From an uncultured Spirochaetales bacterium (GTDB lineage: Bacteria; Spirochaetota; Spirochaetia; Sphaerochaetales; Sphaerochaetaceae): DNA of 64,000 bases. The notes below the pieces were generated by a model. It was not told the DNA's origin, did no database searches, and saw only the letters and a program-made list of their open reading frames with translations. The stretch covers positions 62,001 to 126,000 of the forward strand of contig CASDRU010000018.1 of the NCBI GenBank assembly GCA_949283305.1, read 5' to 3'. Of this stretch, positions 4,995 through 50,423 are shown piece after piece. The position numbers and the translations under genes are program-made. Position 1 is the stretch's first letter, and the number at the start of each line of letters is the position of its first letter.

Positions 4995-5023
4995 ATATTA
5001 CCATTTTATTTTTTCAAATACAA
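4995..5023 (-). promoter_or_regulatory. Promoter of the FecCD operon, leaderless geometry
   Basis: On the minus strand, TTGTAT (5023-5018), a 17-bp spacer ending in TGG, and TAATAT (5000-4995), with the ATG at 4988. The expected start site coincides with the start codon, and no ribosome binding site is present. Confidence 0.6.
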
Positions 5024-6158: not shown

Positions 6159-6187
6159 AGTTTAGCCATCTTGGGAAAAAGAAACAA
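6159..6187 (-). promoter_or_regulatory. Promoter of the CDF exporter gene, leaderless geometry
   Basis: TTGTTT (6187-6182), a 17-bp spacer and TAAACT (6164-6159) on the minus strand, with only 8 bp to the ATG at 6150. No Shine-Dalgarno sequence. Confidence 0.55.
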
Positions 6188-6208: not shown

Positions 6209-6214
6209 TATAAT
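6209..6214 (+). promoter_or_regulatory. Consensus -10 box of yqeC-yqeB
   Basis: A perfect TATAAT ends 8 bp before the yqeC ATG (6223), so the transcript should begin at about the start codon. I see no convincing -35 box. It is divergent from the CDF promoter. Confidence 0.5.
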
Positions 6215-6939: not shown

Positions 6940-7727
6940 TCATTCTTGTCCGTGGAGCTGGCGATATCGCAAGCGCTGTAATCGTCCGGCTTTTCAAAGC
7001 AGGTTTTCCTGTGCTTGCACTTGAGACAGCAAAGCCTACTGTAATCAGACGCACTGTCAGTCTCGCAGATGCTGTTTATGAAAAAGAAGCAGTGGTTGAG
7101 GGTGTGCATGCTGTTCTTTCCAAGAGTATAAAAGAGGCTCTGAGCCTGATGAAGGATCATGTTGTTCCAGTTCTTGTTGATGAGAACATGGAGTGTCTTG
7201 ATGCTCTAAAGCCTTCTGTAATAGTCGATGCGATAATGGCAAAGAGGAACACAGGGCTCAAAAAGGAAATGGCAGAGCTTACAATTGCCCTCGGCCCTGG
7301 ATTTACTGCAGGAGTTGATGCTGATTATGTCATTGAGACAAAGAGAGGGCATAATCTTGGACGGATAATCGAGAAGGGAAGGGCAGAAGAGAATACAAAC
7401 ATTCCCGGAAGCATCGAGGGCTTTACATTTGAGCGTGTGATCCACAGCCCCTCTGACGGTGTGAATGTGAATTTGAAAAAGATAGGGGATATCGTTAAAA
7501 AGGGTGATGTAATAATGACTGTGGGTCAGACGGAAGTCAAAAGCAAGCTGGATGGAATGCTGCGAGGCCTAATCAGAGATAAAAGCATGCTCTTTAAAGG
7601 TGAGAAGATAGCGGATGTCGACCCACGCGGTGAGAAGGCAGAGTATCTTACGATAAGTGACAAGGCAAGGTGCATAAGCGGCTCAGTTCTTGAGCTTGTG
7701 TGCGCATTTTTCTTGAGAGAGATATAA
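6936..7727 (+). CDS. yqeB: Selenium-dependent molybdenum hydroxylase system protein YqeB
   Basis: 263 residues starting IILVRGAGDIASAV, a Rossmann-like nucleotide motif typical of the YqeB/EF2563 family. VDAIMAKRNTG, ALGPGFTAG and VIETKRGHNLGR are also family signatures. The C-terminal half (IHSPSDGVNVNLKKIGDIV) resembles a barrel-sandwich, biotinyl-lipoyl-like module. Together with SelD and YqeC it marks a genome that assembles labile selenium cofactors for xanthine dehydrogenase-type enzymes. No hydroxylase gene lies in this window. It is coupled to yqeC by ATGA overlap. Confidence 0.87.
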   Translation: MIILVRGAGDIASAVIVRLFKAGFPVLALETAKPTVIRRTVSLADAVYEKEAVVEGVHAVLSKSIKEALSLMKDHVVPVLVDENMECLDALKPSVIVDAIMAKRNTGLKKEMAELTIALGPGFTAGVDADYVIETKRGHNLGRIIEKGRAEENTNIPGSIEGFTFERVIHSPSDGVNVNLKKIGDIVKKGDVIMTVGQTEVKSKLDGMLRGLIRDKSMLFKGEKIADVDPRGEKAEYLTISDKARCISGSVLELVCAFFLREI

Positions 7728-7741
7728 TAAAGGATTATAAT
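7713..7741 (+). promoter_or_regulatory. Near-consensus promoter of proA-proB, leaderless geometry
   Basis: TTGAGA (7713-7718), a 17-bp spacer and TATAAT (7736-7741). The proA ATG at 7750 is 8 bp beyond the -10 box, so the transcript should begin 0-2 nt before it. The -35 box lies inside the 3' end of yqeB. Confidence 0.75.
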
Positions 7742-7749
7742 TTTCAGCT

Positions 7750-9027
7750 ATGAGCATCACAGAGGAGATTTTATCAGCAAAGGAGAGAAAGAGAATTCTC
7801 TCTTCTTCATCATCAGAGAGCCGCAACAAGGCGATTTTGGCAATAAGGGATGAGCTTGTTGCCAATAAAGAATACATCTTCAGTGAGAATCAGAAGGATC
7901 TTGAGAATGCCGCTTTGCTTCCTGATTCCATCAGGCATCGCCTGCTGTTTGACCAGAAGAAGCTTGAGCAGAGCATACTCTCTCTTGAAGATGTCGCGTC
8001 TCTTTCCGATCCTCTTGATAAAGTGCTTGAGAAAAGGAGTCTTTGTGAAAACCTTATTCTGCAGCGCGTATCTGTTCCTCTTGGAATCATTGCGATGATC
8101 TTTGAAGCGCGTCCTGATGCTCTCATCCAGATAGTCAGCCTTGCTCTCAAGAGCGGCAATGTGATTGTCCTTAAAGGAGGGAAGGAGGCAAAGAACTCCA
8201 ACCGTGCTCTTTTTGAGGTGATAAGAAAAGCTCTGATGAAAACAGATATCCCAGAGGATTCTGTAATCCTTATGGAAAGCCACAGCGATGTATCTGAAAT
8301 CCTTTCATTGAGCGGGATAATCGACCTTGTCATCCCGAGAGGAAGCAACAGCTTTGTGCGCTATATCATGGATAACACAAGCATTCCAGTCCTCGGCCAT
8401 GCCGACGGAGTGTGCTCTTTGTATGTAGATAAGGATGCGGATCTAGAGATGGCTGTCAAGATTGCAGTCGATTCAAAATGCCAGTATCCATCTGCATGCA
8501 ACAGCATCGAGACTCTTCTAGTGCATGAGGATGTATCAGAATCTTTCCTCCCGCTTTTGAAGGCAGCCTTTGAAAAGGAAAATGTCATTGTGCATTCAGA
8601 CAAAAAGGCTTTTTCCCTTATCGGGGGAATAAAGATAGAGGATGATGAGGAATACAGAAGGGAATTTCTTGACAAAGAAATCAATATCAAGGTTGTCTCA
8701 TCCCTTTCTGATGTTTTTGCTCACCTTGAGAGATATTCATCACATCATACAGACAGCATTGTCACAGACAATAAGGAGACAGCCCGTGTGTATGCTGAGA
8801 GTGTGGACAGTGCTGATGTGTTCATCAACTGCTCAACACGCTTTGCCGACGGCTACCGATTCGGACTTGGAGCAGAGGTGGGAATCTCCACAAGCAAGAT
8901 ACATGCACGCGGTCCTGTGGGGTTGATGGGGCTTACAAGCAGCAAGTGGATTCTCTCGGGATGCGGGGATGTTGTGAGTGATTTTGCAGAGGGCAGAAAG
9001 AAATTTGCCCATAAGGATCTTTTATGA
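7750..9027 (+). CDS. proA: Gamma-glutamyl phosphate reductase
   Basis: A 425-residue cytosolic enzyme that reduces gamma-glutamyl phosphate to glutamate semialdehyde with NADPH, the second step of proline synthesis. IFEARPDALIQI and LKSGNVIVLKGGKEA form the cofactor region. Cys250 in YPSACNSIETLLVH is the expected catalytic thiol, and FGLGAEVGISTSKIHARGPVG is the C-terminal family block. The length is normal. It precedes proB, reverse of the common proB-proA order, with an ATGA overlap. proC lies 4 kb away on the other strand. Confidence 0.95.
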   Translation: MSITEEILSAKERKRILSSSSSESRNKAILAIRDELVANKEYIFSENQKDLENAALLPDSIRHRLLFDQKKLEQSILSLEDVASLSDPLDKVLEKRSLCENLILQRVSVPLGIIAMIFEARPDALIQIVSLALKSGNVIVLKGGKEAKNSNRALFEVIRKALMKTDIPEDSVILMESHSDVSEILSLSGIIDLVIPRGSNSFVRYIMDNTSIPVLGHADGVCSLYVDKDADLEMAVKIAVDSKCQYPSACNSIETLLVHEDVSESFLPLLKAAFEKENVIVHSDKKAFSLIGGIKIEDDEEYRREFLDKEINIKVVSSLSDVFAHLERYSSHHTDSIVTDNKETARVYAESVDSADVFINCSTRFADGYRFGLGAEVGISTSKIHARGPVGLMGLTSSKWILSGCGDVVSDFAEGRKKFAHKDLL

Positions 9028-15065: not shown

Positions 15066-15096
15066 AGAAAGAATGATATTCCCTTCTTGATTGCTT

Positions 15097-17066: not shown

Positions 17067-17072
17067 GAGAGT

Positions 17073-17105
17073 ATTCTATCAGAGAAGGGAATTTTCTGTT
17101 ATACT
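17073..17105. promoter_or_regulatory. Divergent extended -10 promoters of dinB and the 17114 gene
   Basis: On the minus strand TGA then TAGAAT (17078-17073) ends 6 bp before the dinB ATG (17066). On the plus strand TGT then TATACT (17100-17105) ends 8 bp before ATG 17114. Neither gene has a Shine-Dalgarno sequence. The intergenic region is just 47 bp. Confidence 0.55.
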
Positions 17106-17113
17106 CTGTTCTG

Positions 17114-18145
17114 ATGAAAAAGATATTCACGATGTTGATGGTGCTGCTGATTTCGCTTTCCTCGCTTTTTTGTGCCTCTTCATCATCTTTTTCATTTTCC
17201 AATCTTCTTGAAAGTCCTCTGTATTCTCCTTCTTTCAACGGAAGCTATGAGGATACTCTTGTCTCTCCTTCGGCAATGCATTTCCGCACCGATGAGTATG
17301 TGTTCTTTTCCACAGTCAGGTTTTCAGAGCATTACAGCGCATCAGCCTGGCGTGAGAATCTGAAGCTTCCATATATAAACAACTACAGGAATGAATACAT
17401 CTTTTCCTTCATGTCTCGTTATATTGCGCTCAATGTCATAAACTCTCTTTATGTTAACACTGAAAGCAGGAGCAATGAGACTCTTTATGCCAGCTTCCTA
17501 AATGATATCTCAATCTCGCTCAATTTAAGCTGGGGCATATCCTTTTTCTCAGCAGGCCTTTCACTTGACGGGGGAACGACACTGGTAAGGGAGAACAGAA
17601 GGGTTGACGGGATTGCTGACCTTGTTTCAAATGCATATTTCTCATCATACAGCACCCTTGAGGACTCTGATTTCTTCTCAATCGGTTTTTCTCTCTCATT
17701 TGACTTTGACTACATAGCATTCACATACCAGCTGGACAAGCTTGCCACGCTTGAAGATAACAGGCTCTACAGTGACGGAAATCTGATTGTTGACAACATG
17801 GTCATGTCCATTGCCCTTTCATATCCTGAATATACATCAAGAGGAAATCTCAATCTTTTCTCGCCCAGAGTCAGTTATACCATTAAAGGAAATCCGGCGG
17901 GGGAGTACAGCCTTTATGCTTCTGCAGATTTAAAGTTCAACCTGCTTCCTGATTTCTATTTCTCTCTTGCCGCCGGATATTCTGAGACTGATCACAGATT
18001 CTTCATCTTCCGTCCGGAAAACGGAATCCTCTCATTTTCTTTCTCTCTTTCATATGAGCGCTATTATTTCATGCTTGGCCTGAACATGGACACAGCATCT
18101 TTTGAGCACTACTATCCGTATATTAGCTTCACATTCGCGCTTTAG
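17114..18145 (+). CDS. Exported beta-barrel-like protein of unknown function
   Basis: 343 residues with a signal peptide ending near SLFCASSSS. The rest is rich in aromatic and serine residues in an alternating pattern (FSIGFSLSFDFDYIAFTYQL; YSLYASADLKF) and ends in an alternating aromatic strand, ISFTFAL. This is typical of outer-membrane barrels. The cysteine in LFCASS could also serve as a lipobox. I do not recognise a named family. Several similar proteins occur in this window. Confidence 0.65.
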   Translation: MKKIFTMLMVLLISLSSLFCASSSSFSFSNLLESPLYSPSFNGSYEDTLVSPSAMHFRTDEYVFFSTVRFSEHYSASAWRENLKLPYINNYRNEYIFSFMSRYIALNVINSLYVNTESRSNETLYASFLNDISISLNLSWGISFFSAGLSLDGGTTLVRENRRVDGIADLVSNAYFSSYSTLEDSDFFSIGFSLSFDFDYIAFTYQLDKLATLEDNRLYSDGNLIVDNMVMSIALSYPEYTSRGNLNLFSPRVSYTIKGNPAGEYSLYASADLKFNLLPDFYFSLAAGYSETDHRFFIFRPENGILSFSFSLSYERYYFMLGLNMDTASFEHYYPYISFTFAL

Positions 18146-28915: not shown

Positions 28916-29034
28916 GTTGGCACTCCAGAAAGAATATATATCAGAAGTGTGAGGAAATATCCATAACCTGTTTATGTTTTTTAAATCTGCAATTACCTTT
29001 CAATACAGGAAGATTTCTGTTAGATTCTAGACAG

Positions 29035-33383: not shown

Positions 33384-33412
33384 TTGTAGTCAGTTTTAAA
33401 ACGAGGAATACT
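33384..33412 (+). promoter_or_regulatory. Promoter of the 33421 gene, leaderless geometry
   Basis: TTGTAG (33384-33389), a 17-bp spacer and AATACT (33407-33412), 8 bp before ATG 33421. A GAGGA lies 13 bp from the ATG, too far to be a good ribosome binding site. Confidence 0.55.
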
Positions 33413-35272: not shown

Positions 35273-35278
35273 ATTATA
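35273..35278 (-). promoter_or_regulatory. Consensus -10 box of murB, leaderless GTG start
   Basis: TATAAT on the minus strand (35278-35273) with 7 bp to GTG 35265. No clear -35 box; TTTCAA at the right distance is weak. Confidence 0.55.
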
Positions 35279-50394: not shown

Positions 50395-50423
50395 TTGACA
50401 TCCTCCTTTCTGGCTCTTATCTT
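50395..50423 (+). promoter_or_regulatory. Promoter of recO, leaderless geometry
   Basis: Consensus TTGACA (50395-50400), a 17-bp spacer and TATCTT (50418-50423), 7 bp before ATG 50431. The complement of the spacer contains the AGGAGG ribosome binding site of the divergent DUF4105 gene. Confidence 0.7.

Follow-up and report, generated by a model that had tools for sequence, protein, structure and literature searches.

Start-abutting promoters suggest leaderless transcription of many divergently transcribed genes in a gut spirochaete

When a -10 box ends only a few bases before a start codon, does the message carry any leader at all? This question is raised by proA in the DNA analysed here (a stretch of 64,000 nucleotides, hereafter the window), one of eleven starts from which an earlier note had claimed that leaderless transcription is common. 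TATAAT is the -10 box, TTGACA the -35 box and AGGAG the Shine-Dalgarno (SD) site, and the usual distance from the -10 box to the transcription start site is 6-7 nt; at that spacing from a start codon, the first transcript base therefore falls on the start codon. The optimal distance from -10 box to start is given as 7 bp in a study of bidirectional promoters (PMC12825309).

The window (G000:C18:62001-126000) is part of a Spirochaetia MAG of 1,492,767 bases, which is 95.66% complete. Its ProA is 96% identical to the ProA of Candidatus Ornithospirochaeta avicola (Spirochaetia), the nearest named relative.

Leaderless genes are already in print, spirochaetes included. In leaderless-gene predictions on an older genome set than the present one, spirochaetes are listed with 6/18 genomes and a mean of 3.9% of genes, ranging from 1.8 to 6.9 (Zheng 2011, PMC3160421). 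For Leptospira interrogans, RNA-seq is reported to have mapped the start of ~440 genes to 10 nt or less from the start codon, and the parts of that study drawn on here report no promoter motif except sigma-54 (PMC5243855). In Deinococcus-Thermus, a -10 box lying a few bp upstream of the ORF, with no SD, is described as giving leaderless mRNA in reporter tests, the -35 box being dispensable but helpful at 17 bp (PMC12340547). Our literature search combining leaderless, Treponema and transcription start site found no paper.

Start-abutting -10 boxes in the window, the genome and its congeners

A -10-like hexamer lies 6-8 nt upstream of all eleven listed starts, as had been noted (Table 1). The description of these hexamers as good -10 boxes holds for six of them (yqeC, proA, trmL, dinB, barrel 17114 and murB, all strict matches) and is too generous elsewhere; the permease (4988), CDF (6150), small-protein (29035) and second barrel (33421) examples are weak, with matches of 4/6 at the -10 and 3/6 at the -35 position. 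The -35 boxes at 17 bp that had been named for several genes stand for proA (TTGAGA) and recO (a perfect TTGACA), while the -35 matches at the permease, CDF and barrel 33421 reach just 3/6. The small-protein ORF had no Pfam match at 1e-8.

Table 1. Promoter-like elements upstream of the eleven listed starts (positions within the window)
Feature	Position	Strand	Remark
Permease (FecCD family) -10-like TAATAT, weak	4995..5000	-	6 nt before ATG 4988
CDF transporter -10-like TAAACT, weak	6159..6164	-	8 nt before ATG 6150
yqeC -10 TATAAT	6209..6214	+	8 nt before ATG 6223
proA -35 TTGAGA	7713..7718	+	17 bp spacer
proA -10 TATAAT	7736..7741	+	8 nt before ATG 7750; identical in Ca. O. avicola L052
trmL -10 TATCAT	15073..15078	-	7 nt before ATG 15065
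dinB/barrel divergent intergenic region, two start-abutting promoters	17067..17113	.	47 nt
dinB -10 TAGAAT	17073..17078	-	6 nt before ATG 17066
Barrel -10 TATACT	17100..17105	+	8 nt before ATG 17114; overlaps dinB -35 place
Small-protein -10-like TAGATT, weak	29021..29026	+	8 nt before ATG 29035
barrel2 -10-like AATACT, weak	33407..33412	+	8 nt before ATG 33421; SD-like GAGG nearby
murB -10 TATAAT	35273..35278	-	7 nt before GTG 35265
recO -35 TTGACA	50395..50400	+	17 bp spacer
recO -10 TATCTT (4/6, weak)	50418..50423	+	7 nt before ATG 50431

For counts across the genome we scored 737,501 bases of the MAG, comprising 606 genes: 164 divergent-first, 100 tandem with a gap of at least 60 nt, 264 internal, 51 in between and 27 at edges. 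Gene starts were set by a purpose-written caller with coding score as the sole criterion for start choice, and hence upstream signals cannot bias the -10 test. The caller's weak point is signal-peptide genes; it placed both barrel starts downstream of the positions in the earlier note, so the promoters of both barrel genes are absent from the genome counts. Our strict rule asked for a box 5-9 nt upstream of the start with at least 5/6 matches to TATAAT and with the T, A and final T retained. A loose rule, whose background is high, served as supporting evidence only.

Under the strict rule, 36/164 divergent-first genes have a start-abutting box, compared with a shuffle mean of 6.6 and a maximum of 13 (60 shuffles). 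The count outside the window, which is independent of the genes picked in the earlier note, is 32/146 vs 5.6 (maximum 11 in 200 shuffles). Comparison with shuffled upstream regions was the check proposed with the original claim, and the excess is clear. The claim had been made for operon-first genes in general; it is borne out in the divergent-first class, while tandem genes with long gaps show a weak excess (7/100 vs 2.3, shuffle maximum 7). Internal genes show none (6/264 vs 3.8), and nor does an E. coli K-12 control (1/42 vs 0.8). Six congeners together have strict boxes in 23/138 divergent-first genes vs 4.2, with 0/12 in one congener (G003), and five other Spirochaetia families pooled have 11/126 vs 3.0 (shuffle maximum 8). 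The loose rule gives 58/164 in the MAG (shuffle mean 30.7, maximum 43). When single positions were scanned, gaps of 6 and 7 nt gave 15 and 14 matches, and any other gap from 0 to 44 nt gave 0-5; 29 of the 36 strict boxes lie at 6-7 nt.

De novo motif finding returned the same geometry. EM on internal genes found AGGAG with occupancy at the 0.95 ceiling, and EM on the 105 of 164 divergent-first genes that are SD-less found TATAAT, with an occupancy of 0.78, a mode at 6-7 nt and an LL of 85.9 vs 43-54 in six shuffles. Six congeners, whose 87 SD-less divergent-first genes were pooled for an independent run, also gave TATAAT with a mode at 6-7 nt (LL 59.4 vs a maximum of 41.4 over ten shuffles). 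When run on E. coli (16 genes) or on the pool of five other families (66 genes), EM did not return TATAAT. Between ~18% (strict excess) and ~36% (motif-mixture estimate, computed by hand as 0.78 x 0.73 x 105 of 164) of divergent-first genes are concerned. The claim that leaderless transcription is common is therefore supported but limited to this ~18-36% of divergent-first genes; as a share of all called genes, we would put the predicted leaderless fraction at about 5-10%.

The boxes are also conserved. Among the congener orthologues of six listed genes (68 rows, none dropped), a loose -10 box at 5-9 nt is present in 48/68 and a strict one in 30/68, compared with 7.8 and 1.0 in control windows of equal width further upstream. 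By gene, the loose box is kept in 11/11 (dinB), 10/10 (yqeC), 9/12 (recO), 8/12 (trmL), 7/10 (murB) and 3/13 (proA); proA, the anchor of the earlier note, is thus the least conserved of the six. Orthologues in other families keep the box in 8/22 (2.3 expected), out of 28 rows from which we removed five lacking a start codon close to the projected position and one with no match.

Promoter character and competing readings

The 36 strict genes were picked on the -10 box alone, and the -35 box was scored afterwards. Their match to TTGACA peaks at a spacer of 17 (2.81/6 vs 1.2-2.1 at the other spacers from 10 to 25) and reaches at least 4/6 at spacers of 16-18 in 13/36 genes, compared with 5.4 when shuffled (maximum 10); the 23 strict cases of the congeners peak at 17 again (2.83). 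An extended -10 (TGn) occurs in 11/36. The signal is hence not independent of promoter elements, as a -35 box accompanies it at a fixed spacing. This bears on the possibility that the box is no promoter but an AT-rich, non-SD ribosome-binding element within a normal leader, as in Bacteroidetes. The lack of an SD in these genes would suit such an element, as would an AT-rich box close to the start. However, -35-like hexamers at exactly 17 bp, the extended -10, the TTGAC-type -35 visible upstream of recO in most congeners and a position that matches the usual distance from -10 box to start site all argue against it, and we consider this reading very unlikely.

A good SD at the gene's own start was absent from all 36 strict genes (a looser SD rule flags one) but present in 170 of the 264 internal genes; with the AGGAG found there by EM, this agrees with the earlier claim that operon-internal genes are SD-led. 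If the start codons had been called wrongly, the true starts could lie downstream, with an SD and an ordinary short leader. The caller is indeed imperfect, reproducing exactly 29/39 annotated starts in one stretch of E. coli K-12. However, the 25 codons after each called start held no further in-frame start codon with a good SD in any of the 36 strict genes, and the congener protein alignments run from residue 1 in most orthologues of dinB, recO and trmL, which makes miscalled starts a still less probable explanation. Least probable of all is chance, by which AT-rich upstream DNA would yield TATAAT-like hexamers near starts: four of the eleven listed examples are weak, and may be due to chance, and background under the loose rule is high, but for the whole set this is already refuted by the shuffles, by the internal-gene and E. 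coli comparisons, by the single-position peak and by conservation among congeners.

We favour the leaderless reading on several grounds: the boxes sit at 6-7 nt, the SD is missing, -35 matches lie at 17 bp, congeners keep the box at its place before the start codon, and internal genes differ in being SD-led. Very probably, a sizeable minority of divergent-first genes has a housekeeping-type promoter firing at the start codon, giving an mRNA without leader or SD. Such a promoter would set RNA polymerase to start on, or 1-2 bases from, the first base of the start codon, and the ribosome would presumably load directly on this 5'-terminal codon; gaps of 8-9 nt could leave a leader of 1-3 nt. Operon-internal genes and many other first genes would use an ordinary AGGAG site. 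We infer both the real 5' ends and the mode of translation from the arrangement of these signals. A 16S tail was looked for in the MAG and not found; among 24 genomes examined, one congener and four others carry GGCTGGATCACCTCC, which we take to be the 16S-tail (anti-SD) pattern.

Median codon adaptation is lower in the putatively leaderless genes than in SD-led first genes (0.536, n=36, vs 0.576, n=58; p=7e-4), measured against a rough reference of nine genes near rpsL. The two groups do not clearly differ in how often they lead a downstream gene (14/36 vs 27/59). Pfam names were obtained for 26 of the 36 strict genes and for four others from the earlier note. The strict set includes NAD-dependent DNA ligase, the leucyl- and histidyl-tRNA synthetase families, the LytB family and MurB, enzymes that are likely essential.

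Facing promoters in divergent pairs and spread over the class

dinB and the barrel gene at 17114 are divergent, with a start-abutting -10 box on each. In all 11 congeners a divergent ORF lies 41-65 nt from dinB; tblastn confirmed it as a barrel homologue in 10/11, and the remaining locus is cut short. Facing -10 boxes (at least 5/6, 6-8 nt) were found by script in 9/11 congeners. Locus L232 does not fit, and L223 does in our reading if the start is placed two codons further in. Identity to the congener proteins is 57-68% for dinB and 25-38% for the barrel. Bidirectional promoters with shared -10 elements have been described as having start sites 7-25 bp apart (PMC10268837, PMC12825309); the predicted start sites of dinB and the barrel gene are 48 bp apart and would fall outside this definition.

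A tighter pair occurs elsewhere in the MAG (G000 L145:17572-17593), where a gene with a melibiase domain and an unassigned 383-aa gene are separated by a 22-nt gap that includes a palindrome, ATTATATAAT. The two share this sequence, each with a TATAAT 6 nt from its start codon, and their predicted start sites are 23 bp apart, one of the preferred distances given for bidirectional promoters (PMC12825309). By its predicted start sites the L145 pair would resemble those promoters (PMC10268837, PMC12825309) but differ in that both predicted transcripts would be leaderless. At both L145 and dinB/barrel, the polymerases may exclude each other.

Doubly leaderless divergent pairs are not enriched in the genome under either the loose (8/82, 10.3 expected) or the strict rule (4/82, 4.0 expected). 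The genome is compact, and eight of its 164 divergent-first genes lie 30 nt or less from their neighbour; there are none in seven other spirochaete samples or E. coli.

In a class-wide scan of 118 Spirochaetia genomes for TTGACA-N17-TATAAT-N6-ATG (up to two mismatches, not tied to genes and with mismatches allowed to hit the ATG), the N6 spacing gave 4582 matches vs 2773 for N12 and 2711 for N20. More matches fall at gap 6 than at gap 12 in 107/118 genomes, and more than at gap 20 in 101/118; by group, gap 6 outnumbers gap 20 in 34/40 (39 family codes, f1 being divided into the window's own genus and the rest). The window's own genome shows little excess (17, 15 and 11 matches at gaps 6, 12 and 20). 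One outlier, G036, has 231 matches at gap 12 vs 10 and 17 at gaps 6 and 20, which is probably a dispersed repeat with promoter-like sequence; without it the totals are 4572 at N6 vs 2542 at N12. Eight small genomes (1.0-1.8 Mb) of family f19, unlike most families, have no gap-6 excess (135, 135, 162). Without measuring its extent, the scan supports an old and broad use of this geometry.

Probable leaderless first genes beside SD-led internal genes

Together, these data support the view that many divergent-first genes are leaderless, with a geometry that looks widespread and conserved. Leptospira interrogans is likewise a spirochaete, although of a different lineage and with measured starts (PMC5243855), and Deinococcus-Thermus shares the -10 box near the ORF and the lack of an SD (PMC12340547); in our genome both starts and arrangement are predicted from sequence alone. 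Deinococcus-Thermus also belongs to another phylum and uses the arrangement at ~30% of ORFs (PMC12340547), a larger share than that estimated here.

The conserved paired form is worth testing. A bolder proposal, which we hold to be possible without quite favouring it, is that in this genus two leaderless promoters, set back to back within 22-65 nt, drive divergent gene pairs, so that the two polymerases would be mutually exclusive and both messages would lack untranslated space for regulation. The dinB/barrel layout, kept despite protein divergence, would then suggest a selected coupling of a DNA-repair polymerase and an envelope protein, and the start-abutting geometry would be a long-standing trait of the class Spirochaetia.

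If many first genes are indeed leaderless, gene callers that rely on the SD will set start codons wrongly in gut spirochaetes of this kind. With SD-led internal genes beside putatively leaderless first genes, these genomes would also be a good setting for asking how one ribosome serves both.
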